From positions 62,001-126,000 of the forward strand of contig NZ_JAUSVR010000008.1 of assembly GCF_030814815.1 (NCBI RefSeq): a DNA stretch of 64,000 nt. The letters are read 5' to 3'. Each line of letters begins with the position of its first letter. The first letter of the stretch is position 1. This document shows positions 25,357 through 51,673 of this stretch, one piece after another. The notes below the pieces were generated by a model. It did no database searches. It was not told where the DNA came from and saw only the letters and a program-made list of their open reading frames with translations. This DNA comes from Ancylobacter amanitiformis. GTDB taxonomy: Bacteria; Pseudomonadota; Alphaproteobacteria; Rhizobiales; Xanthobacteraceae. The position numbers and the translations under genes are program-made.

Positions 25357-26652
25357 ATGTCCACGCTTCACGCCGGCTATTTCACGCAAGGCCTCGACGC
25401 CGATCCCGAACTGGCCGCCGCCATTCGCGGTGAACAGGCCCGCCAGCAGGACGGCATCGAGCTGATCGCCTCCGAGAACATCGTCTCGCGCCTCGTGCTG
25501 GAGGCGCAGGGCTCGGTGCTGACCAACAAGACTGTCGAGGGCCTGCCCTATGGCCGCTATTATGGCGGGGCGGAATTTGCCGACGCCATCGAGGCGCTGG
25601 CGGTCGAGCGGGCGAAACGGCTGTTCGGCTGCCGCTTCGCCAATGTTCAGCCCCATTCCGGATCGAACGCCAATGCCGGCGTGTTTCTCGGCCTGTTGAA
25701 GCTGGGCGATACCATCCTGTCCATGGACACGGCGGCGGGCGGGCATATCAGCCACGGCCACCCGGCGACGCTGACCGGGCGCGATTACACCATCGTGCGC
25801 TACGGCGTGAGCCGGGAGAGCGAGCGCATCGAGCTGGAGGAACTGCGCGCGCTGGCGCGGACGCATCGGCCCCGGCTCATCGTCGCCGGCGGCTCGGCCT
25901 ATCCGCACGCGCTGGATTTCGCTGGCATGCGAGCCATCGCCGACGAGGTCGGCGCGCTGTTGATGGTCGACATGGCGCATTTTGCCGGGCTGGTGGCCAC
26001 CGGGCTCTATCCGCACCCGTTCCCCCACGCCCATGTCGTGACCTCCACCACCTACAAGTCGCTGCGCGGCGCGCGCGGCGGCATCGTGCTGTGGAATGAC
26101 GAGGACCTGAGCGACCGCATCCATTACGGCATCTTCCCCGGGGTGCAGGGCTCGGTGATGATGCATATCGTCGCCGGCAAGGCGGCTTGTTTCGGCGAGG
26201 CGCTGCGGCCGGAATTCACCGCCTATAACCGCGCCGTGCTGGCGAATGCGCGGGTGCTGGCCGACCGGCTCGCCGGGGCGGGGCTGCGCATCGTCGGCGG
26301 CGGCACCGATTGCGGATTGATGCTGGTGGACCTGTCGGAGACGGGCACCACGGGCGATGTCGCGGCCAAGGCGCTGGAAAAGGCGGGGCTGGCGGTCAAC
26401 AAGAACCTGATCCCGTTCGACCCGCGCCCGCCGGAGGCGCCCTCGGGCCTGCGCCTCTCGTCCAATGCCGGCACGGCGCGCGGCTTCGGCACGGCCGAGT
26501 TCGCCACCCTCGCGGAATGGATCGCCCGGATCCTGCGCGCCCCGGCGGATGCGCAGGTGATCGCCGAGGTCGGCGGGCAGGTGCGCGCGCTGTGCGCCCG
26601 CTTCCCGAATCTATCGCTGAGGCCGGGTCAAGGGGGCCGTGCCAGAGTTTGA
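25357..26652 (+). CDS. Serine hydroxymethyltransferase-like enzyme, possible alpha-methylserine hydroxymethyltransferase
   Basis: 431 residues, fold-type I, with SHMT hallmarks: IELIASENIVSRLVLEAQGS, the GGHISHGHPATLTG loop and PLP Lys234 in STTYKSLRGARGG. Three usual features are altered. The TNKYAEG motif reads TNKTVEG, so the active-site Tyr (Tyr55 of E. coli GlyA) is Thr59; the His before the PLP lysine is Tyr233; and GYPGKRYYGG is GLPYGRYYGG. Tyr-to-Thr at this site is the change reported to broaden SHMT toward D-alanine/alpha-methylserine, so this may be an alpha-methylserine hydroxymethyltransferase rather than housekeeping GlyA. It probably forms an operon with the preceding aminotransferase. 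Confidence 0.85.
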   Translation: MSTLHAGYFTQGLDADPELAAAIRGEQARQQDGIELIASENIVSRLVLEAQGSVLTNKTVEGLPYGRYYGGAEFADAIEALAVERAKRLFGCRFANVQPHSGSNANAGVFLGLLKLGDTILSMDTAAGGHISHGHPATLTGRDYTIVRYGVSRESERIELEELRALARTHRPRLIVAGGSAYPHALDFAGMRAIADEVGALLMVDMAHFAGLVATGLYPHPFPHAHVVTSTTYKSLRGARGGIVLWNDEDLSDRIHYGIFPGVQGSVMMHIVAGKAACFGEALRPEFTAYNRAVLANARVLADRLAGAGLRIVGGGTDCGLMLVDLSETGTTGDVAAKALEKAGLAVNKNLIPFDPRPPEAPSGLRLSSNAGTARGFGTAEFATLAEWIARILRAPADAQVIAEVGGQVRALCARFPNLSLRPGQGGRARV

Positions 26653-26740
26653 CCGTGCGAAGCCGAGGACCGGGCGTTGTGCGCCGGGCACGGGGCGGCT
26701 AGACCACGCGCTCGCCATCCCGCACAGCGCGAGCCGTTCC

Positions 26741-28093
26741 ATGAGTGATGACAGCCGTGATGACAGCCCCGCCGCCCGCCTTGAGCAGCGCCTCGCCGCC
26801 CGCCATGCGCGCATCGGCGTGATCGGGCTCGGCTATGTCGGCCTGCCGCTGGCGCTGGTGGCGGTGGAGGCCGGCTTCCCCGTCACCGGCTTCGACATCA
26901 ATCCGCAGCGCGTCGCCGACATCGCCAGCGGCCGGCAGGTGATCAAGTACATTCCCGCCACGCGGATGGCGGCCGCGCTCGCCACGTCCCGTTTCGCCGT
27001 GACGGAGGATTTCGCGCCGCTCGCGGAATGCGATGCCATCCTGATCTGCGTGCCGACCCCGCTCACCCGTCAGCGCGAGCCGGACCTCTCCTTCGTCGAG
27101 GAGACCGCCCGCGCCATCGCCCGCACGCTGCGGCCGGGCCAGCTGGTGGTGCTGGAATCCACGACCTGGCCGGGCACCACGGCCGAGGTGGTGAAGCCGA
27201 TCCTGGAAGCCGGCGGGCTGGTGTGCGGGCAGGATTTCTTCCTCGCCTTCTCGCCCGAGCGCGAGGATCCCGGCAATGCGCATTATTCCACCGCCACCAT
27301 CCCGAAGGTGGTGGGCGGCGAGGGGGAGGCGGCCGGCCGGCTGGCGAGCGCGCTCTACCGCGATCTCGTCACCCGCGTCGTGCCGGTATCCTCGACCCAG
27401 GTGGCCGAGGCGGCGAAGCTGACGGAGAACATCTTCCGCTCGGTCAACATCGCGCTGGTGAACGAACTCAAGACCGTCTACGCCGCCATGGGCATCGACA
27501 TCTGGGAGGTGCTGGAGGCGGCGGCGACCAAGCCGTTCGGCTTCATGCCGTTCTATCCCGGCCCGGGGCTGGGCGGGCACTGCATCCCGATCGACCCGTT
27601 CTATCTCACCTGGAAGGCGCGCGAGTTCGACATCGAGACGCGGTTCATCGAACTGGCCGGGCAGATCAACACGCGCATGCCCTATCTCGTGGTCGACACG
27701 CTGGCGGAAGCGCTGGACCGGCTGGCCGGGCGGGGGCTTTCGGGCGCGCGCATCCTCGTGCTCGGCGTCGCCTACAAGAAGAACGTGGACGACGTGCGCG
27801 AGAGCCCGGCGCTCAAGCTGATGGAACTGATCGACGAGCGCGGCGGGGAATGCGCGTTCCATGACCCCTTCGTCGCGGCGCTGCCGCCGACCCGCCGCCA
27901 TGGCCGGCTCAGCGGCAAGCGATCGGTGCCGCTGACCGCCGAACTGCTGGACAGCGTCGACGCGGTGCTGGTCGCCACCGACCATGACGAGGTCGATTAC
28001 GCGCTGGTGGCGGCCCACGCGCGCGTGCTGGTCGACACGCGCAACGTGTTCGCGAAGGCGGGGCTTTCCCCCGCCGGCCTCGTCAAGGCGTGA
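26741..28093 (+). CDS. Nucleotide-sugar dehydrogenase (UDP-glucose/UDP-HexNAc 6-dehydrogenase family)
   Basis: 450 residues from ATG 26741; an upstream in-frame start at 26639 overlaps the SHMT-like gene and has no family sequence. Rossmann motif IGVIGLGYVGLPLALVAVEA, the CVPTPL loop, catalytic Cys281 in GGHCIPIDPFYL and the UDP-binding C-terminal domain are all present. It makes two NAD-dependent oxidations of C6 to give a UDP-uronic acid. The GVAYKKNVDDVRESPA motif and the HCIPIDPFYL context fit the WbpA/WbpO/TviB type (UDP-GlcNAc or ManNAc) as well as UDP-glucose. It overlaps the lyase-like gene tail to tail by 11 bp, which hints at shared glycan work. Confidence 0.9.
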   Translation: MSDDSRDDSPAARLEQRLAARHARIGVIGLGYVGLPLALVAVEAGFPVTGFDINPQRVADIASGRQVIKYIPATRMAAALATSRFAVTEDFAPLAECDAILICVPTPLTRQREPDLSFVEETARAIARTLRPGQLVVLESTTWPGTTAEVVKPILEAGGLVCGQDFFLAFSPEREDPGNAHYSTATIPKVVGGEGEAAGRLASALYRDLVTRVVPVSSTQVAEAAKLTENIFRSVNIALVNELKTVYAAMGIDIWEVLEAAATKPFGFMPFYPGPGLGGHCIPIDPFYLTWKAREFDIETRFIELAGQINTRMPYLVVDTLAEALDRLAGRGLSGARILVLGVAYKKNVDDVRESPALKLMELIDERGGECAFHDPFVAALPPTRRHGRLSGKRSVPLTAELLDSVDAVLVATDHDEVDYALVAAHARVLVDTRNVFAKAGLSPAGLVKA

Positions 28094-29126
28094 GGGCGGA
28101 TTTCACCCCCGCCCCCAGCGTCGCGCAGAGTTCGGCACTCGCCACGTCGGTGCAGGCCGGCCCGCGGCGGAAATCGTCGTACCAGATCTTCCAGATGCCG
28201 TCCTGACCGGCCCGGTAGGGGCCGAACTTGAAATACATGTGGTCGCCAAGGCCGTCGCCCTCGTGGCCGATCTTGCCCTCCACCGTGACGATCCATTGGC
28301 CGTTGGCCACGATGTCGATGCGCCCGTCGCCGCCGGGGCCGGGCTTCACCTGGAACACGAAGTCGATCCAGCCCGAATCCAGCGCCGGCAGGGTGCCCCC
28401 GCGCGGGGTGATGACGAGGTCCGGCGAGCAGCCGGGAAAGCCGATCTGCGCCGGCGGTCGCTCGCCCGGCGCCGCGGCGATGAGGGTGCGGAACTGGTTG
28501 AACTCGTCGGGCGTGCCGGCCGGCGCCTCGCCGGGCCGGCACGCGGACGGGCGCTCCGCCGTGCCGACGGGCTGGAACGCGCCGGTGTCGGTGTCGACCG
28601 TGGCGACGAGCCGTCCGTCCACCATGCGCAGCGCCAGAAGCGGCGAGTAGTCGCCATGCGCGCCGGGATCGATCTCGCGCTTCCACTGCGCCATCACGTA
28701 GCGGTGCGGTTCGGTGGGGATCGGCGTCGCCATGCGCATGGACAGCGCGTACCAGACCGGCTTGCCATAGAGCACCAGCACTTCCGGCCTCTCCCACACC
28801 TCGGCGCGCTCGCTGCACAGCCCGTTCTGCTTCTTGCACTGCGAGCGGACGGAGAGTTCGATGGCCTGCTTGCCGTTTCGCACGATCTCGGGCTCAAACG
28901 CGTAGCTGCCGGCCTCCTGCTCGTGGTTGTCCTTGTAGTAGAGCCCGCCGGCTGGCGCGAAATCCGTGCCCTCGAAGCCGTCGGACAGCACGAGGTCGCG
29001 CCCGTCCTGCCCGGCTGAAGCGGGGAGCGCGGATCCGGGCGTCGCGACAAGCAGCGCGAACCCGCAAAGAGCGAGCCGCTTCAACGCACTGCGCCGGCCG
29101 GGGTAGAGCGGAATCGTTGCGATCAT
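28083..29126 (-). CDS. Heparin lyase I-like polysaccharide lyase (PF14099-type), exported
   Basis: 347 residues from ATG 29126, with GAGAAGG upstream. The N-terminus GRRSALKRLALCGFALLVAT is a signal peptide with a twin-arginine-like pair, cleaved near ALPASAG. The body fits the concanavalin-like polysaccharide lyase family: RAEVWERPEVLVLYGKPVWY, RYVMAQWKREIDPG, WIDFVFQVKPGPGGDGRIDI and YFKFGPYR. Related enzymes cleave uronate-containing glycans by beta-elimination; the substrate here is unknown. It faces the UDP-uronate-forming dehydrogenase tail to tail and diverges from the ABC/cyclase run across 104 bp. Confidence 0.8.
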   Translation of the reverse strand: MIATIPLYPGRRSALKRLALCGFALLVATPGSALPASAGQDGRDLVLSDGFEGTDFAPAGGLYYKDNHEQEAGSYAFEPEIVRNGKQAIELSVRSQCKKQNGLCSERAEVWERPEVLVLYGKPVWYALSMRMATPIPTEPHRYVMAQWKREIDPGAHGDYSPLLALRMVDGRLVATVDTDTGAFQPVGTAERPSACRPGEAPAGTPDEFNQFRTLIAAAPGERPPAQIGFPGCSPDLVITPRGGTLPALDSGWIDFVFQVKPGPGGDGRIDIVANGQWIVTVEGKIGHEGDGLGDHMYFKFGPYRAGQDGIWKIWYDDFRRGPACTDVASAELCATLGAGVKSALTP

Positions 29127-29230
29127 GATAGCCTTCTCAGGATTTGGTGATCGTGCATGCGCGTGGGTGGTCGGCTGCCTATTTATGACGATCGGAATTT
29201 TAGGTTCTGCCAGCGAAGGGCGCAAAGGCC

Positions 29231-31966
29231 TTGTCCCTCAATTTCTTCAGTTATGTCTGGCACCACAGCCGGCGGGAGCAGTTGATCGTCCTGATCTTCG
29301 TGGTGGCGTCGCTGCCCTTCTACTGGTGGTCGCTCGACGTGCCCAAGCGCATCGTCAACGAGGCTATCCAGGGCAACGTCTTCAAGCACGGCGAGGCGGG
29401 CGCGCGCCTGTTCGACTATTCGCTCTCGCTGCCCGATTTCCTCGGCGGCGCCACCTGGCAGATCACCGATGGCCTGTTGCTGGCGCAGGTGCCCTACCTG
29501 TTCGCGCTGAGCATGGTCTTCCTCGTGCTCACGCTGATCAACGGCTGGTTCAAATACGTCATCAACATCCGCAAGGGCGTGCTTGGCGAGCGGATGCTGC
29601 GGCGGCTGCGCTTCGAACTTTTCGAGCTGGTCATGCGCTTCCGGCCGGAGGATGTGCGCACCACCAAGTCGGCCGAAGTCACCTCGATGATCAAGGACGA
29701 GGTGGAGCCGATCGGCGGCTTCTTCGGCGAGGCCTTCATCACGCCGGCCTTCCTCGGCACCCAGGCCATCACCGCGATGGCCTTCATCCTGGCGCAGAAC
29801 ATGTGGCTGGGCACGCTGTCGCTCTCGCTCATCCTGGTGCAGGGCGTGGTGATCCCCTATCTGCGCCGCGAGCAGATCCGCCTCGGGCGGATGCGGCAGA
29901 TCGAATCGCGCCGGCTGGCCGGGCGCATCGGCGAGATGATCGATGCGGCGCCGGCGCTGCACGTGTTCGGCGTGGCGCTCTACAGCGCGGCCGAGATCGG
30001 CCAGCGCCTGGGCACGCTGTTCCACATCCGCCTGCAGCTCTACCGCCGCAAGTTCGCGGTGAAGTTCCTCAATAACCTCTTGTCCCAGCTCACCCCCTTC
30101 ATCTTCTACACGCTGGGCGGCTATCTCGCGCTCAAGGGGCGGCTCGACATCGGCCAGCTGGTGGCGGTCATCGCCGCCTATCGCGACCTGCCGGGGCCCA
30201 TCAAGGAACTGATCGACTGGGACCAGCAGCGCGCCGACGTGACGGTGAAATACGAGCAGGTGGTGGGGGCCTTCTACAAGGAGACCCTGCTGCCGCCCGA
30301 TCCGGTGCGTGACCCCGAGCCGATCCCGCGCGACGCGCCGATCACCATCGTCGGGCTGCGCGTGATGAACGGGCGCGGCCTCGTGCAGATCGACCGCATG
30401 TCCGCCGCCATCGGCCGGCCGGGCCGCGTCGCGCTGGTGGGTGCCGCCGGCAGCGGACGCGACATCCTGCCCAAGGTGATGGGGCGCCAGATCACCGATT
30501 ATCAGGGCAGCGTCACCATTGGCGGGCACGAGGTGGGGGCGATGTCGGACCGCGAGGCGAGCGCCGTGATGCTGTATGCCTCCGGCGAACCCTTCATCAT
30601 GTCCGGCTCGATCCGCGACAATCTGTGCCTCGCGCTGCGCCGGGCGCTGCCGGTGCCGGACGAGCCGAAGGATGCCGCCGCCCGCTACTGGCGGGAAGAA
30701 GCGCTCGCCACCAACAACCCGATCGTCTCGCCCGATGCCGACTGGATCGACTATCATGCCAGCGGCCTTTCCGGGCCGGCCGATCTCGATGCCGCCATCA
30801 TCCAGGCGCTGCGCACCGTGCGCGGCTATGACGACATCTTCCGCGTCGGCCTGACCAGCAAGCTGGGCGACGACCTTGGCGAGGATCTGGCCGAGCGCCT
30901 GTTGGGCGCGCGCGGAGCCATTTACGCGCGCTATGAGCAACTGGGCCTCGCCAGCTATGTCGAGACCTTCCAGCCCGAGCGCTTCAACGCCAATGCCACG
31001 ATCGGCGAGAACCTCTTGTTCGGCGTGTCGATCGGCAAGCGGTTCGCGGCGGAGAAACTGGCCCACGATCCGTTCGTGCGCTCGATCATCGCCGCCGAGG
31101 CGCTGGTGGCCCCGCTCACCAATATCGGCCTCAAGATGGTGGAGACGGTGGCGGAGGCCTTCCAGGGCCTCGCCGCGGACAACCCGCTGCGCGAACGCTA
31201 CTCGTTCATCGACGAGGCCGAGCTCAGCGAATTGTGGCCGCAGCTGCAGGGCACGTGGCAGCGCGGCCAGCGCCGCCAGTTCTCGCCGGAACTGCGCGAC
31301 AAGCTGGTCGGCTACGCGCTCATGTATGTGGAGCCGCGCCACCGGCTCAGCCTGATCGACGAGCATCTCGTCGCCCGCGTGCTGCGCGCCCGCGGCAGTT
31401 TCCGCGACTTCCTGCCGGCCAAGGATGCCGGCGAGATCGAGTTCTACGATCCCGAGCGACTGATGCCGGCGGCGACGATCCGCGACAACCTGCTGTTCGG
31501 CCGCATCCGCTACGGCAAGATGCACGCGCGCGACAAGCTGCTGGACGCCGCCCATGCGGTGCTCGACGAACTGGGGCTGGAGAGCTTCGTGGTCTCCAAG
31601 GGCCTTGAGCAGGATGCCGGCCCGGGCGGCCGCCTGCTCTCGGTGCAGCAGCGGGTGACGGTGCATCTGGCCCGCGCTCTGCTGCGCCAGCCCGACATTC
31701 TCATTCTTGACGATGCTCTCTCTAGCTTCGGAGCGAGTGAGGCGCATATGATCATGGAGAATATCTTCGAGGCGATGGCGGGCCGGACCGTCATCGTCGC
31801 GCAGTCGAACGATGATGATCTCGACGCGTTCGATCTGGTGTTGACATTCGAGGGAGCCAAGCTGGCGGGAGCCGAGCGCAAGGGCTCCCCGTCCGGCACG
31901 CAGGCTCAGGAGGGTCGGCCAGTGGCGCCGGTTCGCGAGCAACAGCCGCAGGAGGCTATGAAATGA
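29231..31966 (+). CDS. Degenerate ABC-exporter-like protein with expanded nucleotide-binding region
   Basis: 911 residues from TTG 29231; the first later Met is well inside the protein. Residues 1 to about 340 hold five or six membrane helices like an ABC exporter. The nucleotide-binding part is abnormal. The P-loop reads GAAGSGRD (404-411; Lys replaced by Arg410). About 390 residues, instead of about 100, separate it from the signature position, which reads LSVQQ (about 803). Walker B ends D827-D828 where Asp-Glu is expected, and Gln858 replaces the H-loop His. In the expansion the sequence that follows the Q-loop in exporters occurs three times: SIRDNL (460), TIGENLLFG (590), TIRDNLLFG (749). 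Ordinary ATP hydrolysis is doubtful. The stop overlaps the next gene. Confidence 0.85.
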   Translation: MSLNFFSYVWHHSRREQLIVLIFVVASLPFYWWSLDVPKRIVNEAIQGNVFKHGEAGARLFDYSLSLPDFLGGATWQITDGLLLAQVPYLFALSMVFLVLTLINGWFKYVINIRKGVLGERMLRRLRFELFELVMRFRPEDVRTTKSAEVTSMIKDEVEPIGGFFGEAFITPAFLGTQAITAMAFILAQNMWLGTLSLSLILVQGVVIPYLRREQIRLGRMRQIESRRLAGRIGEMIDAAPALHVFGVALYSAAEIGQRLGTLFHIRLQLYRRKFAVKFLNNLLSQLTPFIFYTLGGYLALKGRLDIGQLVAVIAAYRDLPGPIKELIDWDQQRADVTVKYEQVVGAFYKETLLPPDPVRDPEPIPRDAPITIVGLRVMNGRGLVQIDRMSAAIGRPGRVALVGAAGSGRDILPKVMGRQITDYQGSVTIGGHEVGAMSDREASAVMLYASGEPFIMSGSIRDNLCLALRRALPVPDEPKDAAARYWREEALATNNPIVSPDADWIDYHASGLSGPADLDAAIIQALRTVRGYDDIFRVGLTSKLGDDLGEDLAERLLGARGAIYARYEQLGLASYVETFQPERFNANATIGENLLFGVSIGKRFAAEKLAHDPFVRSIIAAEALVAPLTNIGLKMVETVAEAFQGLAADNPLRERYSFIDEAELSELWPQLQGTWQRGQRRQFSPELRDKLVGYALMYVEPRHRLSLIDEHLVARVLRARGSFRDFLPAKDAGEIEFYDPERLMPAATIRDNLLFGRIRYGKMHARDKLLDAAHAVLDELGLESFVVSKGLEQDAGPGGRLLSVQQRVTVHLARALLRQPDILILDDALSSFGASEAHMIMENIFEAMAGRTVIVAQSNDDDLDAFDLVLTFEGAKLAGAERKGSPSGTQAQEGRPVAPVREQQPQEAMK

Positions 31967-32481
31967 CCATCGAGGACGAAGTCCGGTCGCTTCAGAAGTT
32001 CCGCATGTTCCGCGATGTGGAAGGTGCAAAGCTGAAGCTGCTCGCCATGATCAGCGACCGTGTCGTGTTCCAGCCCGGCGAGGTGATCTACGCGCAGGGC
32101 GATGCGTCCGATGCCGTCTACATCGTGCTGGAAGGCCAGTTCAAGGTGTCGCTCGTCACCGGCCATGGGGTGATCGACTTCGCCGAGCATGTGCGCGGCG
32201 TGCTGCTCGGCGAGGCCGGCGTGCTGTGCGACCAGAACCGCATGGCCACCATCACGGCGGAGACGCCGGTTGTCGCGCTCCGGGTCGATCGCGAGCCGTT
32301 CCTCCAGCTGCTGAAGGAATCGCGCCCGTTCAACCATGCGGTCGTGCGCGAACTGGGCCGCCAGATCATGGAACTCAACAATATCTGTGCCCAGCTGGTG
32401 GAACGTCTTCCCAAGGGGACGCCGGCCGTCGATGCAGGCCACAAGGTCGCTCTCACGGCGACTCATGAACAGGTGCATTGA
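31963..32481 (+). CDS. Stand-alone cyclic-nucleotide-binding (CNB) domain protein
   Basis: 172 residues; AGGAGG (31950-31955) precedes ATG 31963, which overlaps the ABC stop. It is a single Crp/Fnr-type CNB beta-barrel with the phosphate-binding cassette LGEAGVLCDQNRMATI: Gly83, Glu84 and Arg93 are in place to hold the ribose and phosphate. A helical tail follows (VVRELGRQIMELNNICAQLV), then a disordered end. There is no helix-turn-helix, so it is not a transcription factor. It sits between the membrane ABC-like gene and the cyclase-like gene and probably signals by protein contact. Whether it binds cAMP, cGMP or nothing is open. Confidence 0.88.
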   Translation: MTIEDEVRSLQKFRMFRDVEGAKLKLLAMISDRVVFQPGEVIYAQGDASDAVYIVLEGQFKVSLVTGHGVIDFAEHVRGVLLGEAGVLCDQNRMATITAETPVVALRVDREPFLQLLKESRPFNHAVVRELGRQIMELNNICAQLVERLPKGTPAVDAGHKVALTATHEQVH

Positions 32482-32490
32482 CGGTCACCC

Positions 32491-34233
32491 ATGTCGCTGA
32501 GTTCGACGACCAGACCGGCTGAGGATGCCGGGCACAAGCGGACGCACCTGCGCGACGTGCCATGGGCGTGCGGGGCGCGGCAATGGTCCGGCATCATCCT
32601 GTTCGCCTTCGTGCTGACCCACCTCCTCAACCACGCCGTGGGCGTGTTCGGGGTCGAGGCGATGCAGCATGTCCAGCAATGGCGCTGGTTGATCTGGCAG
32701 TCGCTGCCCGGCACGCTGCTGCTCTACGGCGCGGCGCTGGCGCATATGGGCCTCACCGCCTACCGGGTCACGCTGCGGCGCACCTGGCGCATGCCGCGCG
32801 ACGAGGCGTGGCAGATCATGTCCGGCCTCGCCATTCCGCTGCTGGTCGTCAGCCACGTGGTGCAGACGCGCATCGCCCATACCTGGTTCGGCGTCGATAC
32901 CGGTTACCAGGCGGTGCTGTACAAATTGTGGCCCGGCGCGGTGTTCTCGCAGAGCCTGCTGCTGGTGGTGGCGTGGAGCCATGGCGTGATCGGGATGCAT
33001 CACGCCATGCGCTACCAGAACTGGTACACCGCGCGCTGGCGCACTGCCGGGCTGGTGCTGGCCGTGCTCATTCCCTGCCTGGCGCTGATGGGGTTCTTCG
33101 CCGGCGGGCGCGAGGCGGCGCTGGGGGCCGCGCCGGAAGCTCTGACCGCCGCGCAGGCCGGACGCCTCGCCATGGCCGGCGGCACGCTCTACTGGGGCGT
33201 GGCGGGCTTCGTCGCCGCCTTCGCCGGTCTCATCGGCGTGTTCTATATCCGCCGACGGGTGGGGGCGACCGTCACCATCACCTATCGCGGCTTCGGCCGG
33301 GTGGAGGTGCCGCGCGGCACCTCGGTGCTGGAGGCGAGCCGCATCAACCATATTCCGCACCCTTCCTCCTGCCGGGGGCGTGGGCGCTGCGCGACCTGCC
33401 GGGTGCAGGTGCTCTCGGGCAGCGAGCATGTGACCGAGCCGTTCGGCGGCGAGCGCATGGTGCTGGCCAGCCTCGGCGCGCCGGAGAATATCCGTCTCGC
33501 CTGCCAGCTGCGCCCGACGCAGGACCTTGGCGTGCGCATCCTGATGCCGGTGCTCGGCCGGCGCTTCGACGTCGACCAGGATGAGGCGGCGATGGAATGG
33601 GCGCTGGAGCGCGAGGCCACCATCCTCGTACTCGATCTTCGCGCGTTCACCACCTTGACGCACAACCGGCTTCCTTATGAGATCGCGGTGCTGGTGAACC
33701 GCTTCTCCTCGGAGATGAGGCAGGCGGTGGAAAGCCATGGCGGTCGTGTGGATCAGATGTATGGCGACGGGTTGATGGCGGTGTTCGACACGTCGGACAA
33801 GAAATCCACGGGCGCCCGTGCCGCGCTGCGGGCGGCGCGCGACATGTCGCGCGTGCTCGAACTGCTGAATGGCGAGATGCGCGGGGCGTTGCCCATCCCG
33901 ATCCGCGCCGGCATCGGCATTCATACGGGCCGCGTCGTGCTGGCGCGCGTCAGCGACGGGCTCGGCGCCAATGAACTGCACGCCATCGGCGACACGGTGG
34001 CGGTGGCGGCGGCGCTGGAGAGCGCCTCCAAGGAATTCCTGTCCGACTATGTCGTCTCGAAGGAGGCGGCGGAGGCCTCCGGCTTCGATTTCTCCCGGCT
34101 GACCGCGCGCGAGGTGACGATGGACATCAGCGGGGCGAGCATTTCGGTCTATGCGATCGCCGATGCGGCCACGCTGGGCGAGGTCATGGCGGGCAAGGCG
34201 GTGCTCGGCATTCTCAACATGGCGAGGGCCTGA
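32491..34233 (+). CDS. Membrane cytochrome-b-like / [2Fe-2S] / class III cyclase-like protein (CyaC-like)
   Basis: 580 residues. The first 260 or so form a His-rich multi-helix membrane domain (LTHLLNHAVG, LAHMGLTAYR, VSHVVQTRIAH, WSHGVIGMHHAM) resembling diheme-b succinate/fumarate oxidoreductase anchors. A plant-type ferredoxin domain follows, with Cys294-x5-Cys300-x2-Cys303-x34-Cys338. The C-terminus is a class III nucleotide cyclase fold with metal Asp382 (LVLDLRAF) and Asp426 (MYGDGLMAVF). The other catalytic positions are changed: GDTVAVAAALES has Ala for the transition-state Asn and Ala for the Arg, and the adenine-selecting Lys/Asp appear as Gln/His. S. meliloti CyaC, a quinone-responsive adenylate cyclase with a diheme-b anchor, is the closest described protein I know. 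This copy may sense redox state without normal cyclase activity. Confidence 0.87.
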   Translation: MSLSSTTRPAEDAGHKRTHLRDVPWACGARQWSGIILFAFVLTHLLNHAVGVFGVEAMQHVQQWRWLIWQSLPGTLLLYGAALAHMGLTAYRVTLRRTWRMPRDEAWQIMSGLAIPLLVVSHVVQTRIAHTWFGVDTGYQAVLYKLWPGAVFSQSLLLVVAWSHGVIGMHHAMRYQNWYTARWRTAGLVLAVLIPCLALMGFFAGGREAALGAAPEALTAAQAGRLAMAGGTLYWGVAGFVAAFAGLIGVFYIRRRVGATVTITYRGFGRVEVPRGTSVLEASRINHIPHPSSCRGRGRCATCRVQVLSGSEHVTEPFGGERMVLASLGAPENIRLACQLRPTQDLGVRILMPVLGRRFDVDQDEAAMEWALEREATILVLDLRAFTTLTHNRLPYEIAVLVNRFSSEMRQAVESHGGRVDQMYGDGLMAVFDTSDKKSTGARAALRAARDMSRVLELLNGEMRGALPIPIRAGIGIHTGRVVLARVSDGLGANELHAIGDTVAVAAALESASKEFLSDYVVSKEAAEASGFDFSRLTAREVTMDISGASISVYAIADAATLGEVMAGKAVLGILNMARA

Positions 34234-34236
34234 GGC

Positions 34237-36144
<1,908 letters not shown>

Positions 36145-36154
36145 GGAGCCGATG

Positions 36155-38122
36155 ATGCTGAAGCGGGGGCTTCTCCTGATCGCCGGGCTGCTGGCGGCGC
36201 TGGTCCTGTCTCCGGCCCTCGCGCCGGCGGTGAGCGGCGTGGCGCGCGCGGAGGCGATCGACCTCTCGCTCGAGCCGCCGATCTTCGTGCGCGACATATG
36301 GGAGGGCCGCCTGCCCCCGCTGGCCCAGCGGCTGCCGCAGGTGCCGCGGGTGATCGACCTCAAGGCGGCCGGCAATGAACCGGGCCGTTATGGCGGCACG
36401 CTGCGCGCGCTGATGGGCGACCAGCGCGATATCCGCTTCGTCACGCTCTACGGCTATGCGCGCCTCGTCGTGTTCGATCTGGAAGGCCATATCGTCCCGG
36501 ATATCCTGCTGAACGTGGATGTCGAGGAGGGGCGCCGTTTCACCCTGCATCTGCGGCCGGGGCATCGCTGGTCCGACGGGCAACCCTTCACCTCGGAGGA
36601 TTTCCGCTACTGGTGGGAGGATGTCGCCAATGATCCCAAGCTCAATCCCGGCGGGCCGCCGCTGCAGATGCTGGTGGAGGGCGAGCCGGCGACCTTCGAG
36701 GTGATCGACGAGACGACCGTGCGCTACAGCTGGTCGAAGCCCAATCCCGGCTTCCTGCCGGCGCTGGCGGGCGCGCAGCCGCTCGTGATCGTCATGCCCG
36801 CCCATTACATGAAGCAGTTCCACCAGCGCTATGCCGACCCGCTGAAGCTCTCCAGCCTTATCAAGGAAGTGCGGGTGAAGGACTGGACGGCGCTGCACGA
36901 CCGCATGTCGCGCTCCTACCGGCCGGAAAACCCGGACCTGCCGCTGCTCGGCCCATGGATCCCGCGCACCTCGCCGCCGGCCGAGTTCTTCGTGTTCGAG
37001 CGCAACCCGTTCTTTCACCGGGTCGACGAGCGCGGCCGCCAGTTGCCCTATATCGACAAGATAACCATCTCGATCGGTACCGCCTCGCTGATCGCGGCCA
37101 AGGTGGCGGCCGGCGGGGCGGATCTGCAGGCGCGCTATCTCAGCTTCGCCGACTACACCTTCCTCAAGGAGGGGGAGGCGCGCGGCGGCTACAAGGTGCG
37201 CCTGTGGGAGCGCGGCGAAGGCGCCTATGTGGCGCTGTTGCCCAACCTCAATGTCAAGGACCCGGGCTGGCGCACCGTGCTGCGCGACGTGAACGTGCGG
37301 CGCGCGCTCTCCGTCGCCATCAATCGGCGCGACATCAACCAGGTCATCTTCTTCGGGCTCGGCCATGAGGGCGCCAACACGGTGATCCCGGGCAGCCCGC
37401 TCTACGATTCGCGATATGACCGGGCCTGGGCGCAATATGATCCGGCGCTGGCGAACAAATTGCTGGACGCCGCCGGGCTCGACCGGCGCGATGATGACGG
37501 CATCCGCCTGTTGCCCGACGGTCGGCGCGCCGAGATCACCGTCGACACGGCGGGCGACAGTACCGAGCAGACCGACATTCTCGAACTGGTCGGCTATGAC
37601 TGGCAGAAGATAGGTATCAAGCTGTTCGTGCACAGCGCGCAGACCAACCTGCTCCGGCGCAGCGTCATCGCCGGCAACGTGATGATGTCGATCTGGCCCG
37701 GCCTCGACAATGCGGTGCCCGGTCCCGACATGCCGCCCGATGCGCTGGCGCCGACCAATTCCATGCAGTTCCAGTGGCCGCTCTGGGGGCAATATGTGGA
37801 TAGCGGCGGGCGCGAGGGCGAGAAGCCGGATGATGCGGCGGCGGCCGAACTGGCCGATCTCGCCCTGCAATGGCGCCGCTCGGTGAGCACGCAGGAACGG
37901 CGCGCCATCTGGAAGCGCATGCTGGAGATCAATGCCGACCAGGTTTTCACCATCGGCGTGATCAACCGCACCTCGCAGCCGGTGGTGGTGAGCCGCCAGC
38001 TGCGCAACGTGCCGGAAACGGGGATCTACAGTTTCGAGCCCGGCGCCTATTTCGGCATCTACATGCCGGACACGTTCTGGTTCGACGACGGCACCTCCGG
38101 CCTTGAAGTGACGAGGGACTGA
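36155..38122 (+). CDS. Oligopeptide-type ABC transporter substrate-binding protein (SBP_bac_5)
   Basis: 655 residues from ATG 36155; AGGAG lies 6 bp upstream of it and only 3 bp from the adjacent ATG 36152. A signal peptide ends near GVARAEA. The family 5 pattern is clear: GTLRALMGDQRDIRF, FTLHLRPGHRWSDGQPFTSE, then DVNVRRALSVAINRRDINQV and the C-terminal lobe. At about 655 residues it is longer than DppA (about 535) and closer to YejA-size proteins that take large or modified peptides. The periplasmic ligand is unknown; the glycan genes nearby make a glycopeptide or muropeptide conceivable. Confidence 0.92.
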   Translation: MLKRGLLLIAGLLAALVLSPALAPAVSGVARAEAIDLSLEPPIFVRDIWEGRLPPLAQRLPQVPRVIDLKAAGNEPGRYGGTLRALMGDQRDIRFVTLYGYARLVVFDLEGHIVPDILLNVDVEEGRRFTLHLRPGHRWSDGQPFTSEDFRYWWEDVANDPKLNPGGPPLQMLVEGEPATFEVIDETTVRYSWSKPNPGFLPALAGAQPLVIVMPAHYMKQFHQRYADPLKLSSLIKEVRVKDWTALHDRMSRSYRPENPDLPLLGPWIPRTSPPAEFFVFERNPFFHRVDERGRQLPYIDKITISIGTASLIAAKVAAGGADLQARYLSFADYTFLKEGEARGGYKVRLWERGEGAYVALLPNLNVKDPGWRTVLRDVNVRRALSVAINRRDINQVIFFGLGHEGANTVIPGSPLYDSRYDRAWAQYDPALANKLLDAAGLDRRDDDGIRLLPDGRRAEITVDTAGDSTEQTDILELVGYDWQKIGIKLFVHSAQTNLLRRSVIAGNVMMSIWPGLDNAVPGPDMPPDALAPTNSMQFQWPLWGQYVDSGGREGEKPDDAAAAELADLALQWRRSVSTQERRAIWKRMLEINADQVFTIGVINRTSQPVVVSRQLRNVPETGIYSFEPGAYFGIYMPDTFWFDDGTSGLEVTRD

Positions 38123-38124
38123 GG

Positions 38125-39126
38125 ATGCTGCTGCGCTATATTCTCCGCCGTATCCTCATCATGATCCCGACGCTGCTGGTGACCAGCGCGCTGATCTTCA
38201 CGGTGATGGAACTGCCGCCGAGCGATTATTTCGAGACCTATGTGGCGGAAATGGCCGCGCAGGGCGAGAAGGCCGATACCAGCCGCATCGAGTTCCTCAA
38301 GCGGGAATATGGCTTCGACCGGCCGCCGATCGAGCGCTACTTCTACTGGATCGCCAATTTCGTGCAGGGCGATTTCGGCTACTCGTTCGAATACGAGATG
38401 CCGGTGCGGGACGTGGTGGGCGACCGGCTGGCGCTGACCATCCTCGTGTCGTTCTGCACCATATTGATGACCTGGATCGTCGCCTTCCCGATCGGCATCT
38501 ATTCCGCAACCCACCAGTATAGCTGGGCTGATTACGGGCTCACCTTCATCGGCCTGCTGGGCATCGCCGTGCCGCATTTCCTGCTGGCGCTGATCTTCAT
38601 GTATTTCGCCAATGTCTGGTTCGGCCTGTCGATCGGCGGGCTGATGGACCCGGTCTACCTGAACCAGCCGATGAGCTGGGAGAAGGCGCAGTCGATCCTC
38701 GCCCATCTGTGGATCCCGGTCCTCATCATCGGCGCCGGCGGCACCGGCTCCATGGTGCGCGCCATCCGCGCCAACCTGCTGGATGAATTGCAGAAGCAGT
38801 ACTACGTGACCGCCAAGGCGAAGGGCCTGCCGCCCTTCCGGGCGCTGACGAAATACCCGCTGCGCATGTCGCTCAATTTCTTCATCTCGCATATTGGCGA
38901 TGTGTTGCCGGCCATCGTTTCCGGCTCGGAACTGACCGCGGTGGTGCTCTCGCTGCAAACCACGGGGCCGCTGCTGCTGCGCGCGCTGCAGAGCCAGGAC
39001 ATGTATCTGGCCGGCTCGTTTCTCCTGTTCCTGTCCTGCCTCACCGTGGTCGGCGTGCTGATCTCCGACATCGCGCTCGCCTTCCTCGACCCGCGCATCC
39101 GGCTTCAGGGAGGGAGCACCAAGTGA
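38125..39126 (+). CDS. Oligopeptide-type ABC transporter permease (DppB/YejB family)
   Basis: 333 residues, six membrane helices, first helix in the typical MLLRYILRRILIMIPTLLVT start. The EAA-type coupling loop is KQYYVTAKAKGLPPFRALTK. Two bases separate it from the binding-protein stop, and it overlaps the second permease by 4 bp. It forms the channel with the 39123-40334 product. Confidence 0.93.
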   Translation: MLLRYILRRILIMIPTLLVTSALIFTVMELPPSDYFETYVAEMAAQGEKADTSRIEFLKREYGFDRPPIERYFYWIANFVQGDFGYSFEYEMPVRDVVGDRLALTILVSFCTILMTWIVAFPIGIYSATHQYSWADYGLTFIGLLGIAVPHFLLALIFMYFANVWFGLSIGGLMDPVYLNQPMSWEKAQSILAHLWIPVLIIGAGGTGSMVRAIRANLLDELQKQYYVTAKAKGLPPFRALTKYPLRMSLNFFISHIGDVLPAIVSGSELTAVVLSLQTTGPLLLRALQSQDMYLAGSFLLFLSCLTVVGVLISDIALAFLDPRIRLQGGSTK

Positions 39127-40334
39127 ACGCCGACGCCGCCCTGTCCGATGCCGCCCCGTCCACCGTCCGGCTGCCGCCCTCCGGCGCGCCGATGACGCAT
39201 TACGTGGCGACCGGCCCGTTCGATCCGAACGCGACCGAGCCGATGACCAAGGCGCAGGAGCGGGTCTATCTCGCCTCCCAGCTCACGCTGATGTGGTGGA
39301 AGTTCCGCCGCCACCGGCTGGCGCTGATCTCCGGCATCTTCCTCCTCGTGGTCTATTTTTCGATCCTGTTCTGCGAATTCCTCGCGCCCTACGACTACCA
39401 GGCCCGGCATACCGACTTCATCCGCAGCCCTCCGCAGGGCATTCACCTGTTCCACGAGGGCAGCTTCATCGGCCCGTTCACCTACGGGCTCGACTACAAG
39501 CTCGACCTCGAAACGCTGCGGCGCACCTACACGCCGGATGAGAGCCGGATCTACCCGGTGCGCTTCTTCTGCCGCGGCGACAGCTACAGGTTCTGGGGCC
39601 TCATCGAGAGCAACCTGCACCTCATGTGCCCCGGCGAGGGGGGCACGCTGTTCCTGCTGGGCACCGACCGGCTGGGGCGCGACATGCTCTCGCGCATGAT
39701 CTACGGCGCGCGCATCTCGCTCACCATCGGCCTGATCGGCGTGGCGGTCAGCTTCTCGCTCGGCATCGTCATCGGCGGCCTTGCCGGCTATTATGGCGGC
39801 ATCTTCGACCTCTTGACCCAGCGCGCCATCGAGGTGGTGCAGTCGCTGCCGCATATCCCGCTCTGGCTGGCGCTCTCGGCGATCATGCCGCCGGACTGGA
39901 GCCCGATCCTGGTCTATTTCGGCATCACCGTCATTCTCGGCCTGATGGACTGGACCGGGCTCGCGCGCGCCGTGCGCTCCAAGCTGCTGTCGCTGCGCGA
40001 GGACGAATATGTCGTCGCGGCCCAGCTGATGGGCGCGCGCACGCCGCGCATCGTGTTCCGCCATCTGGTGCCGGGCTTCATGAGCCACCTCATCGCCATG
40101 GCCACCATCGCCATTCCCGGCATGATCCTCGGCGAGACCGCGCTGAGCTTCCTCGGCCTCGGCCTGCGCCCGCCCATCACCTCCTGGGGCGTGATGCTGA
40201 ACGAGGCGCAGAACATCAATATCGTGGTTCTCTACCCCTGGCTGATCCTGCCGGTCGTGCCGGTGATCTGCGTCATCCTTGCCTTCAACTTCCTCGGCGA
40301 CGGCCTGCGCGACGCGGCCGATCCCTATCGCTGA
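39123..40334 (+). CDS. Oligopeptide-type ABC transporter permease (DppC/YejE family) with enlarged periplasmic loop
   Basis: 403 residues, about 100 more than DppC. The extra length is an N-terminal cytoplasmic tail of about 65 residues and a long periplasmic segment after the first helix (roughly residues 80-170, containing RFFCRGDSYRFWGL with two or more Cys). The coupling loop is VVAAQLMGARTPRIVFRHLV, and the closing MILGETALSFLGLGLRPP is standard for the family. ATG overlaps the preceding stop. Confidence 0.92.
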   Translation: MNADAALSDAAPSTVRLPPSGAPMTHYVATGPFDPNATEPMTKAQERVYLASQLTLMWWKFRRHRLALISGIFLLVVYFSILFCEFLAPYDYQARHTDFIRSPPQGIHLFHEGSFIGPFTYGLDYKLDLETLRRTYTPDESRIYPVRFFCRGDSYRFWGLIESNLHLMCPGEGGTLFLLGTDRLGRDMLSRMIYGARISLTIGLIGVAVSFSLGIVIGGLAGYYGGIFDLLTQRAIEVVQSLPHIPLWLALSAIMPPDWSPILVYFGITVILGLMDWTGLARAVRSKLLSLREDEYVVAAQLMGARTPRIVFRHLVPGFMSHLIAMATIAIPGMILGETALSFLGLGLRPPITSWGVMLNEAQNINIVVLYPWLILPVVPVICVILAFNFLGDGLRDAADPYR

Positions 40335-40348
40335 CGGAAAGCCAACCG

Positions 40349-40777
40349 ATGTCCACGCTGTCGCGGCTGGAAAAGACACTGTTCCGCCTTCAGGCGCAGC
40401 ATGCCTGCCTTGCCCATGCCTTCGCCGCGATCGCCAGCCGGCCGGGGCCGGTGGTGGAGTTGGGCCTCGGGCTCGGGCGCACCTTCGACCATCTGCGCCG
40501 CCACCTGCCGGAGCGCGAGATCCATGTGTTCGACCGGGTGAACGGGGCCTATGAGGACTGCCAGCCCGATCCCGCCCTTCTGCATCTCGGCGAGATCGAG
40601 GAGACAGTGCCGGCGCTCGCGGGCCGGCTGGCCGGCCGGGTGGTGCTGGCCAATGCGGATCTGGGCTCGCATGACCGCGACTGCAACCGGCAGCTGGCGC
40701 TGGAGGGCTTCGAGGAGCCGCCCCGGCCGGCGGGCCTGCGCGAGGGCTGCTATTATCTCTACCGCCGCCCCGCCTGA
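40349..40777 (+). CDS. Small class I SAM-dependent methyltransferase
   Basis: 142 residues from ATG 40349, 14 bp after the permease. The SAM-binding glycine loop is VVELGLGLGRTFDHLRRHLP (about residues 29-48), followed by the acidic strand end HVFDR. The short length and the ending EGCYYLYRRPA fit a compact one-domain family (Methyltransf_17-type) found in Hyphomicrobiales. The acceptor is unknown. It closes the eight-gene run from 29231 and overlaps the convergent glycosyltransferase-deacetylase gene by 19 bp. Confidence 0.75.
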   Translation: MSTLSRLEKTLFRLQAQHACLAHAFAAIASRPGPVVELGLGLGRTFDHLRRHLPEREIHVFDRVNGAYEDCQPDPALLHLGEIEETVPALAGRLAGRVVLANADLGSHDRDCNRQLALEGFEEPPRPAGLREGCYYLYRRPA

Positions 40778-42711
40778 GCGGCGAGGAGCGCGCGCGGGCT
40801 GGTGAAGCGCACCGTGCCCGATGCCAGCAGCCGGTCCATCACCTCGCCGAGGAAGCGATCAATCCAGCCGTCATGGACGAGATGATGGGTGAGCAGGCCG
40901 ATCGGTTCCAGCACGTCCGGTTGGCTCGCCAGTTCCTCCTCGATCCGCCGCACCAGCCCGTCGAGCAGCCCGGCCTCTTCCGCCAGTCCGCCGCCGGCCC
41001 GCCAGTCGATCGGGTCCCAGTGGGTGTTGAGCCGGAGCGGTGCCGCTGGTCCGTCCGGGGGGCGGCGCTTGTAGGTGGAGAGCGCCGCGATCCCCAGAGC
41101 GGGTAGGCCTTCGGCCAGTTCCGGGGCGATACGGTTCCATGGCGGCACGAAGACCGGCAGCGCCCGCGCGCCGAACAGCGCATCGAGCCGCGCCCGGCCG
41201 GCCGCGATGTCGGCGATCATCGACGCGCGCGGCCGGTGCGCGCCGAATTCGGCCTTCTTCTCGCCCGCCGGCGCGTGGTTCACATGCGCCCAGCCATGCA
41301 CGAGCACGTCCACCTGCGCCTCGCCGGCGAGCCGCTCGGCCAGCGCCGGCGTCGCGCGGGCAGGAATGACGGCGAGCGAAAGCGGCACGGCCCAGCGGGC
41401 GCGCGCCGCCAGCAGCGTGTCGAGCGCCGGCGTCGGGGCGATCGCATCATCGTCGCGCCACCAGAAGGCGAGGGGGCGGCCCGCCTTTCGCGCGCGGGCC
41501 AGCGTGGTCTCCAGCCGGGCCCAGGCGTGGCCGGCGGCGCGTCGGCGGATGATGGCCTCCTCGACCCGTGCGGCGGTGCGCGCGGCGCCGTCGCGGCCGA
41601 TGCCGGACCAGTCCGGGCGGGGCTCGCCAAGCGCCGCACGCACCGTGGCGGCGAGTTCCGCGCCGGTCAGCGTCGCCGCCGCGAGCCTGCGCACGAGGCC
41701 GCGCCGCGCCAGTTCGCCGGCGCGTTGGGTCTGCTCCTGCTCCGCGCCCTCCGCGAAGGGAACGAGGATGGCGCGGGCCCCCGCCGCCGCGAGGTCGAGC
41801 ACGGTATTGTAGCCGGCCTGGCTGATGGAGAGCGCGGCGCGCGCCAGCAGCGCGGGGAAGTCCGGCCGGGCGCGTTCGACCCGCATATTGGCCGGCGCGT
41901 CCGCCACCAGCCCCTCGAACGCCTCGATGGCTACGCCGGACCCCACCAGCAGCCGCCATTGCCGCTCCGGCACGAGACGCGCCGCTGCCAGCGCCTGACG
42001 CGCCAGCGGCAGGCCGGCCGCCGAGCCGCCACCGGAGACGACGATCTCGTCCGTGCCATCGGTGCCGCCATTGCCGGCCGCGCGGGCACCGTCATGCACA
42101 TAGCCGGTCTCAATCAGCCGCCGCTCCAGTGCTGGCGGCACCGGCCAGGAGGCGCTGAGCGGGACCAGTGCGGCCGCGCCGTGGAACAGCACCCCATCAT
42201 AGAAGGCGGCGAGCGTGGTGAGCGCGCCCTCGGCCTTCTCCGGCCTTGAGGGTGGGTTCAGCACGTCGCGGATCGAGGCGAGGATGACCGGGCGCGGCGT
42301 CGCGGCGCGGGCATGCCGCAGCAGCGCGTCGAACTCCGCCGCGAGCGAGCGCCGGCCGAACGGGTAAAGCTCGGTGATGAGCGCGTCGGGCCGGACCGCG
42401 TCGAAGGCCTCGATGAGCGCCGCCCGCCGTGCCGCCAGATACGCGGCATCGGCAATAATGCCGGGTGCCGCGTAGAGCGTGCGGAAATCGGTGCCGACAC
42501 AGTGCACCGGGGGCAGCTGGATCCGGTGGCAGCCGGTGGTGTCGACCGTCGCCGCCGCCCGTCCGCCGGAAGCGAGGGTGACATCGACCCCCGCCGCCGC
42601 CATGGCCCGGCCCACCGCCGCCATGCGGGCGAGGTGGCCGACGCCCAGCAGATGGGTGACGACGATGAGCACGCGCGATGGTGTCCCCGCGGGGGTGTCG
42701 GTCGCGCTCAT
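40759..42711 (-). CDS. Fusion of a GT-B glycosyltransferase (MurG/COG4671-like) and a polysaccharide deacetylase-like domain
   Basis: 650 residues. Residues 1 to about 385 resemble MurG-type GT-B enzymes: LIVVTHLLGVGHLARMAAVG at the start, VVSGGGSAAG, and the donor-site pattern SISQAGYNTVLDLAAAGARA with VPFAEGAEQEQTQRA. Residues about 405-640 resemble a NodB-type deacetylase: WRDDDA carries the acid pair and HGWAHVNH the metal His, with late THHLVH. One polypeptide could thus add a sugar and deacetylate it. The following GT4 gene overlaps its start by 4 bp, so the four glycosyltransferase genes are one operon transcribed leftwards. Substrates unknown. Confidence 0.82.
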   Translation of the reverse strand: MSATDTPAGTPSRVLIVVTHLLGVGHLARMAAVGRAMAAAGVDVTLASGGRAAATVDTTGCHRIQLPPVHCVGTDFRTLYAAPGIIADAAYLAARRAALIEAFDAVRPDALITELYPFGRRSLAAEFDALLRHARAATPRPVILASIRDVLNPPSRPEKAEGALTTLAAFYDGVLFHGAAALVPLSASWPVPPALERRLIETGYVHDGARAAGNGGTDGTDEIVVSGGGSAAGLPLARQALAAARLVPERQWRLLVGSGVAIEAFEGLVADAPANMRVERARPDFPALLARAALSISQAGYNTVLDLAAAGARAILVPFAEGAEQEQTQRAGELARRGLVRRLAAATLTGAELAATVRAALGEPRPDWSGIGRDGAARTAARVEEAIIRRRAAGHAWARLETTLARARKAGRPLAFWWRDDDAIAPTPALDTLLAARARWAVPLSLAVIPARATPALAERLAGEAQVDVLVHGWAHVNHAPAGEKKAEFGAHRPRASMIADIAAGRARLDALFGARALPVFVPPWNRIAPELAEGLPALGIAALSTYKRRPPDGPAAPLRLNTHWDPIDWRAGGGLAEEAGLLDGLVRRIEEELASQPDVLEPIGLLTHHLVHDGWIDRFLGEVMDRLLASGTVRFTSPRALLAAQAGRR

Positions 42712-43832
42712 GCCGCTATCTCCGGCAGAATGATGCCGCTGGCGCGGAAGGCCTGCGCGAGCGTTGTCGCGGCGGCGGCCAGCGTGCGCTCGGCGCCGAT
42801 GAAGCGGGCGGCGGCCTCGCCCATGGCACGACGGCGCTCTCCGTCCACCATCAGTTCCGCGACGGCCGCGCGAAAGGCCGGGATATCGCCGGGCGGGGTG
42901 AGCAGGGCCGTCTCGCCCGCCTTCACCGCGTCGGCAATGCCGCCATGGTTGCCGGCGATGCAGGGCAGGCCATGGGCCTGCGCTTCGAGATAAACGGCGC
43001 CGAATGCCTCGTTCACGCCGGGCCAGACGAACAGGTCGGCGGCGGAGAACACCTCGCCGAGCGCGGCGCGCCCGGCAATGGCGCCGCGAAAGCGCACCCG
43101 CGCGCCGAGCGGGGCAAGGGCGGCTTCCACCTCCGCCCGCGCCGGCCCGTCACCGACCACGTCGAGCGTCCAGTCCTCTCCGTCGAGCCCGGCCAGCGCC
43201 GCGCCGAGCTGGCGATAGGAGGCGAGCTTGTCGCCGGGGCGCATCATGGCGACGGTGAGCAGCCGCGCCGGCCGATCTTTCGAAATGGCACGGAGCAGCC
43301 CCCGATTTGGCCATTCCGTAGGGTCAATGAAGGGTTTGAGGTCGAAAATGCGCTGGTGTGGCGATTTCAGGCGGTCGAGCATGTCGCGATCGGCGGCGGT
43401 GGGGGTGAGCAGCAGGTCGGCTGCCGCGATGGCGGCTTCCGCCCGCGCGTGGCCTTCCGCGAAGGGGCCGTTGGCCCGCTTGGGCGCCCGCGACGGTTCG
43501 GCGATCACATAGGGCACGCCGAGCGCGGCGGCGAGCCGGGGGCCGATCAGGTCCGGCGCCTTGTAATAGACGTGGTAGGTGAAGACGCAGGCGATCCCGT
43601 CCTCGCCGTGCCGCGCCGCCAGAAGCCGCCGGATCTCCTCGCGCGCCCGTTCATCCAGCGCCGGCCAGCGCGCGGGATCGGGATCGGGCGCGAAACTGGT
43701 GAGGTGGGAAGCAAGTTCGACGGTGTAGCCGAGGCGCTCCAGCAGCCGCACGAACAGCCGTGCCATGGTGCGTTCGCCCGAGGGTACCGGATGGTCGGGC
43801 GCCTTGAGCGGCGCGAGAAACAGGCAGCGCAT
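42708..43832 (-). CDS. Glycosyltransferase, GT4 family
   Basis: 374 residues from ATG 43832, beginning MRCLFLAPLKAPDHPVPSGE. A longer reading (to 44018) crosses the upstream gene's minisatellite and is not real. It has the acceptor-side start with SGERTMARLFVRLLERLGY and the donor-binding region FVWPGVNEAFGAVYLEAQAH, the E-x7-E type motif of GT4 retaining enzymes. It starts 4 bp after the stop of the next glycosyltransferase and is coupled to the fusion gene. Confidence 0.85.
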   Translation of the reverse strand: MRCLFLAPLKAPDHPVPSGERTMARLFVRLLERLGYTVELASHLTSFAPDPDPARWPALDERAREEIRRLLAARHGEDGIACVFTYHVYYKAPDLIGPRLAAALGVPYVIAEPSRAPKRANGPFAEGHARAEAAIAAADLLLTPTAADRDMLDRLKSPHQRIFDLKPFIDPTEWPNRGLLRAISKDRPARLLTVAMMRPGDKLASYRQLGAALAGLDGEDWTLDVVGDGPARAEVEAALAPLGARVRFRGAIAGRAALGEVFSAADLFVWPGVNEAFGAVYLEAQAHGLPCIAGNHGGIADAVKAGETALLTPPGDIPAFRAAVAELMVDGERRRAMGEAAARFIGAERTLAAAATTLAQAFRASGIILPEIAA

Positions 43833-43836
43833 GCAA

Positions 43837-45252: not shown

Positions 45253-45253
45253 C

Positions 45254-46531: not shown

Positions 46532-46766
46532 CAATATACCCGATAGGGGGGAGGCCACCGTGAAGCGGCAACCGGTCCGATGATACTGCCAGTTCTACAT
46601 GGCCTGTCGCAGGATCGTAAGATAGGCCGGCTGCCTATGTCGAGACGGTGAGGAAAATCCCCCATGACCTTTGCGGCATCTCGCCCGCCGGGGGGACGGG
46701 CCCGCCAGCCCCCGAGATGCCGGCGCTCCGGTGCCGGGGCTACAGCGCCGGGGCCCGGGTGCCGGC

Positions 46767-47822: not shown

Positions 47823-47825
47823 GGG

Positions 47826-49289: not shown

Positions 49290-49291
49290 GG

Positions 49292-51592: not shown

Positions 51593-51658
51593 GGATCGAT
51601 CTCCGCTCATAACCCCATTGCAGGCGATGATGCGGGGAGCGGGGTCCGGGTTCTTTCG

Positions 51659-51673
51659 CAATGGCCCCCATTG
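51659..51673. promoter_or_regulatory. Palindrome in the ydeP-cioAB promoter region
   Basis: CAATGG-CCC-CCATTG (51659-51673) is a perfect 6-bp palindrome about 70 bp upstream of the ydeP-like start. It could be an operator for the operon; the regulator is unknown. Confidence 0.4.

Follow-up and report, generated by a model that had tools for sequence, protein, structure and literature searches.

CyaC of S. meliloti (SMc01818) is a redox-regulated, diheme-b class III adenylate cyclase that makes cAMP, and paired replacements among its residues K410, T484, N491 and R495 silence it (PMC10463352). CyaC binds CycR without nucleotide, and a K410A/T484A mutant of CyaC no longer co-sedimented the regulator Clr, which contains a cyclic nucleotide-binding (CNB) domain, in vitro (PMC10463352). 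The window analysed here, a stretch of 64,000 nucleotides from Ancylobacter amanitiformis (contig NZ_JAUSVR010000008.1), encodes a protein built in the same order as CyaC, with a putative diheme-b anchor of six helices, a [2Fe-2S] domain and a class III cyclase domain, but the catalytic K, T, N and R are all replaced. The neighbouring genes differ as well: S. meliloti cyaC adjoins TetR and LysR regulator genes, whereas the window gene follows a pair of genes for an ABC-exporter-like membrane protein and a stand-alone CNB protein.

The members of this pair can also be compared with described systems. By profile and structure comparison, the ABC-like protein shares its transmembrane fold and NBD arrangement with ABCB-type exporters (P-glycoprotein, TmrAB, MsbA) and with SUR-type ABC regulators, but unlike the exporters it has a degenerate Walker A, H-loop and signature, an insertion of about 270 residues in the NBD region and a CNB partner that is paired or fused with it. 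The parallel with SUR, in which the ABC fold is used as a regulator, is functional only. The CNB protein resembles the CNBs of NCBIfam family TIGR03896, which are tied to bacteriocin-type ABC exporters, in being encoded with an ABC-exporter-like protein; however, it scores 34.4 bits against a curated cut-off of 161, and no microcin genes were seen. To our knowledge, the TIGR03896 family has no CyaC partner. As in the Pycsar anti-phage system (PycC with a CNB-type effector), cyclase-family and CNB proteins are encoded together, but the window cyclase is predicted to be dead, its CNB protein is without a TIR or TM effector, and the chromosomal importer/glycan context is conserved across families. 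Pycsar was rejected as an assignment, the similarity to PADLOC PycC/TIR being weak and at the family level, with catalytic residues missing.

The initial annotation did not recognise the module as described. This no longer applies to the cyclase architecture, which is that of the published S. meliloti CyaC (PMC10463352), or to the trio as an exclusive unit, given that the ABC-CNB pair is widespread without CyaC and sometimes stands beside intact cyclases. It does apply to the ABC-CNB family: the literature searched, outside which most subscription papers lie, held nothing relevant on such a pair, on a pseudo-cyclase of this kind or from studies of Ancylobacter or Bosea, and an ABC-fold family that is predicted to be ATPase-dead and is paired with CNB proteins in many Alphaproteobacteria is apparently undescribed. 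What is new here is a CyaC-type redox cyclase that has turned into a predicted pseudo-enzyme and is coupled to this broad family, with a nucleotide-free mode of action as a plausible reading.

The trio and its gene run

The three genes lie on the plus strand and encode the ABC-exporter-like membrane protein of 911 residues (29231-31966, TTG start; ORF list, Pfam, motif alignment and AlphaFold2), the CNB protein of 172 residues without a DNA-binding domain (31963-32481; Pfam and motif alignment) and the CyaC-type redox sensor of 580 residues with a catalytically degenerate class III cyclase domain, hereafter pseudo-CyaC (32491-34233). The ABC and CNB genes share an ATGA overlap at 31963, and a 9-bp gap separates the CNB gene from that of pseudo-CyaC; the three reading frames and both junctions thus lie where the initial annotation had placed them, and its reading of the domains and of lost key residues in both enzyme-like proteins agrees with the Pfam matches, the CyaC-type His set and the motif alignments described below. 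Its view of the module as self-contained has to be given up. The trio heads a seven-gene same-strand run (29231-40334) with no gap larger than 9 bp, which continues with the genes of a peptide-type ABC importer at gaps of at most 7 bp: a double-NBD OppDF-like importer ATPase (34237-36144; profile matches), an SBP_bac_5 periplasmic binding protein (36152-38122; Pfam), an OppB-like permease (38125-39126) and an OppC-like permease (39123-40334), all on the plus strand. This spacing suggests that the seven genes are co-transcribed. Four glycosyltransferase genes on the minus strand (40759-46558) lie outside the run, and many other families have homologues of these genes beside ABC-CNB, so that the module is embedded with an importer and often with glycosyltransferases.

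Upstream of the unit (25357-29225) are SHMT-like, UDP-sugar dehydrogenase and polysaccharide-lyase-family genes, the latter two of which also accompany it in other lineages. Further downstream, the minus strand at 46767-51790 carries the genes of a cytochrome bd oxidase (subunits II and I, 46767-49289) and then an 832-residue ORF that is possibly CydDC-like; in the other genomes no cytochrome bd genes were seen adjoining the module.

In the ABC-like protein, Pfam finds ABC_membrane and a weak ABC_tran match. Its Walker A reads GAAGSGRD and its Walker B-like motif ILILDDALS, the signature is degenerate and there is no H-loop His. These losses are family-wide: a canonical Walker A (GxxGxGK[ST]) is absent from all 56 aligned ABC members (37-78% identical to the window protein), none of them has a His at the aligned H-loop position, and in the eight that keep the Walker A Lys alone the next residue is Asp or Glu. 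The motifs suggest that the protein is ATPase-incompetent. Most of the invariant columns of the alignment fall in the transmembrane part. A confident AlphaFold2 model (pLDDT 87, pTM 0.80) has ABCB-type structural matches, and its secondary structure places the extra, mostly helical insertion at residues ~470-740. The named exporter families CydD, MsbA and NHLM were rejected for this protein, all scoring far below their curated cut-offs.

The CNB protein matches PF00027 (cNMP_binding) above the cut-off (E=2.9e-19), and by Pfam its 172 residues contain no HTH, including the C-terminal HTH of the CRP/FNR type. In its pocket, GE...RMAT, the GE...R is present and the S/T-A that usually follows the Arg reads M-A. 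The solved CNB structure 5d1i was set aside as a separate protein of modest similarity.

In pseudo-CyaC, Pfam recognises Fer2 (E=9e-12) and Guanylate_cyc. His44, 48, 85, 122 and 164 in the six-helix membrane anchor (32560-33260, plus strand) and Cys294, 300, 303 and 338 in the [2Fe-2S] domain (33295-33540, plus strand; Pfam and homologue alignment) are invariant in 25/25 pseudo-CyaCs and 14/14 intact homologues (39/39), and by this conserved CyaC His set the N-terminus is a putative diheme-b-type anchor. In the cyclase domain (33599-34170, plus strand), motif alignment, with CyaC numbering assigned through motif spacing, places Q422, H497, A504 and A508 at the positions of CyaC K410, T484, N491 and R495, and the metal-binding Asp382 and Asp426 are kept. 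The predicted model retains the cyclase fold (Z 24.7 over 186 residues against 1wc1), and the VIA-align structural matches cover the cyclase domain only. The domain has lost the substrate and transition-state residues and is predicted to be catalytically dead. The metal Asp residues are kept in most pseudo-CyaCs, the second one being lost in three sequences; the mildest case (L132) has K->M and N->S and keeps T and R.

Conservation and descent

Fourteen of 30 genomes of the genus Ancylobacter carry the cyclase gene, exactly the same 14 carry the ABC gene and a high-identity SBP gene, and at the thresholds used none of these three genes was detected in the other 16. The order ABC-CNB-cyclase-OppDF-SBP is identical in all 14, and the ABC-CNB and CNB-cyclase spacing is near-constant when gene starts are extrapolated from alignments. 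The nearest named relatives holding the unit are Ancylobacter species, and Bosea, Rhizobiaceae bacterium CPCC 101076 and the MAGs L112 and L113 share the ABC-CNB-cyclase order and its spacing. The proposal of one conserved three-gene module is borne out by this distribution, the genes not being separated at random in relatives.

The 25 pseudo-CyaCs (from Ancylobacter, Bosea and others) form one clade, with support of 100/100 for the full protein and 100/99 for the sensor part alone. Each of their genes lies directly behind an ABC-CNB pair or, in one case, behind an ABC gene alone, and the ABC proteins linked to them likewise form one clade (SH-aLRT 99); therefore, the genes were probably co-inherited.

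The CNB pocket differs according to the company of the protein. Of the 61 CNBs without a pseudo-CyaC, 60 carry an intact R[ST]A[TS] motif, against none of the 16 CNBs beside one. Because the pseudo-CyaC clade arose once, this correlation counts at the level of the lineage only: it is one lineage event with later divergence and not 16 independent events. The Ancylobacter CNBs retain the pocket Glu and Arg and have changed the residues that follow, and the Arg is lost in all seven Bosea-type loci and in L112.

Pairwise dN/dS is well below 1 for every gene examined. For the pseudo-cyclase domain it is 0.025-0.27, in most pairs lower than for the sensor part of pseudo-CyaC, and the domain is under purifying selection.

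The ABC-CNB family and its neighbours

A profile scan of genome contigs with the family alignment yielded at least 358 confirmed ABC relatives. The best 80 come from Ancylobacter, Bosea, Chelatococcus, Microvirga, Methylobacterium, Rhizobium, Mesorhizobium, Kiloniella and some MAGs labelled Betaproteobacteria, and 73 of them have a CNB protein encoded directly 3' of the ABC gene or fused to the ABC protein. The others among the best 80 are L132 and six Methylobacterium/Phreatobacter loci (L163, L165, L167, L171, L175, L179), for which no CNB was detectable in the available flanks. The A. amanitiformis genome has a paralogous second locus (L062:12166-15306) in which ABC and CNB are a single protein of 1046 residues; about 5 kb upstream of this fusion, an ORF of 1096 residues encodes an N-terminal cyclase domain that is degenerate and has lost K and N.

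Among the same best 80 of at least 358 relatives, homologues of the window's importer genes lie near ABC-CNB in at least 35-37 loci and those of its four glycosyltransferases in at least 32-50, depending on the gene; no locus includes more than 8 kb of flanking sequence, which makes these counts lower bounds. The order in Rhizobium is SBP-OppB-OppC-three glycosyltransferases-ABC-CNB, and in Bosea the importer is divergent. Loci L101-L180 contain a large cluster, conserved in Alphaproteobacteria, that combines ABC-CNB with an SBP5 importer and four glycosyltransferases in orientations that vary.

In several families without a pseudo-CyaC (loci Chelatococcus L117/L120, L162/L166, L180, L155, L079, L085 and L087), a class III cyclase with K, T/D and N kept (R sometimes being K) is encoded near ABC-CNB. 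An intact cyclase beside ABC-CNB is plausibly the older arrangement.

A proposed relay by contact and competing readings

We suggest, with a probability of roughly one half, that the trio is a membrane module for redox sensing in which contact between proteins has taken over, entirely or for the most part, from cyclic-nucleotide chemistry; on the sequences at hand, we infer that a conformational rather than a chemical relay is the best-supported reading. In this model, as in CyaC, the diheme-b anchor would sense the redox state of the quinone pool, the sensed state would change the pseudo-cyclase dimer, and the dimer would act by contact on the CNB protein, which in turn would serve the ABC-fold membrane protein, predicted to be ATPase-dead, as a regulatory subunit, a role suggested by the natural ABC-CNB fusions. 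Speculatively, the relay would control the activity of the peptide-type importer encoded with it and/or the export or synthesis of the glycan of the neighbouring glycosyltransferases; gene context makes a tie to uptake or surface glycan likely, even if it is also something of a guess. The nucleotide-independent binding of CycR by CyaC is a precedent for such a relay, and the changed CNB pockets together with the genomes that have no other class III cyclase strengthen it. Against it stands the loss of Clr co-sedimentation by K410A/T484A CyaC. Moreover, the metal Asp kept in most pseudo-CyaCs means that nucleotide may still be bound, and the pocket Glu and Arg in Ancylobacter make cNMP binding possible there, both of which count against a relay free of nucleotide. 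We put only tentatively, and at clearly less than even odds, the strictest version, a nucleotide pathway minus its nucleotide: sensor, synthase, receptor and effector would all have been kept and inherited together, as enzymes that are dead or pockets that are altered, and conformational contact alone would carry the signal from the quinone pool to a membrane regulator shaped like a pump.

The main rival, which we consider unlikely though by some way the strongest competitor, is that the CNB protein still senses a cyclic nucleotide from another source (or a different nucleotide, for example c-di-GMP), the pseudo-cyclase being a nucleotide-binding sensor or scaffold, so that the ABC protein would receive both inputs, redox and nucleotide. 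The retained GE...R and metal Asp just discussed fit this reading, as do the other class III cyclases in some unit genomes, including Bosea sp. LC85, and a CYTH-family protein in A. amanitiformis. However, the one other class III cyclase-like protein of A. amanitiformis is also without K and N, and the pocket Arg is lost in Bosea and L112. In addition, the pseudo-CyaC is the sole PF00211 match in seven of the 14 unit-bearing Ancylobacter genomes (G008, G012, G014, G015, G018, G025, G029), and three Bosea-type genomes (G063, G066, G067) have a single class III cyclase match, at the pseudo-CyaC coordinates; ten unit-bearing genomes are thus without another recognisable class III cyclase, recognisable meaning by a profile search that a very divergent cyclase could escape. 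No class I cyclase was found in the 30 genomes of the genus sample, and CYTH proteins are present in 16 of them, with no CYTH match in five of the seven single-match Ancylobacter genomes (G012, G014, G015, G025, G029).

Alternatively, the ABC protein may still export or flip the neighbouring glycan, slowly or without ATP hydrolysis at the degenerate site, with the CNB protein and the CyaC-like protein gating a regulated glycan exporter. The frequent glycosyltransferase neighbours and the transmembrane part as the most conserved part of the protein would agree with this, but the 56 ABC members without a canonical Walker A or aligned H-loop His, and the position of the Ancylobacter glycosyltransferases outside the gene run, make it improbable.

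In mammalian adenylyl cyclases the C1 half holds the metal Asp and the partner half supplies K, T/D, N and R. The pseudo-cyclase, having kept both Asp and lost K, T, N and R, has the pattern of a C1 half and could in principle be completed by a second cyclase. We regard this as very unlikely, because no second class III cyclase was recognised in ten unit genomes, the only other one in A. amanitiformis is without K and N, and three sequences have lost even the second Asp; a C1/C2-type heterodimer was rejected wherever the genome has no partner cyclase. Local decay toward pseudogenes, to which the simultaneous loss of several catalytic residues might point, is refuted by the frames intact in 14 genomes, the low dN/dS of every gene and of the dead domain, and losses that are common to the whole clade for the cyclase and to the whole family for the ABC protein, in agreement with the initial annotation.

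The analysis exposes a broad family of ABC-fold proteins, predicted to be ATPase-dead, that have CNB partners across many Alphaproteobacteria (and MAGs labelled Betaproteobacteria) and are accompanied by an oligopeptide-type importer and glycosyltransferases. If the contact relay is true, the pseudo-CyaC module would offer a natural example, open to experimental test, of a second-messenger pathway turned into direct signalling between proteins, and the intact sister modules of a Microvirga MAG (L125) and Chelatococcus (L117/L120) are available for side-by-side comparison.
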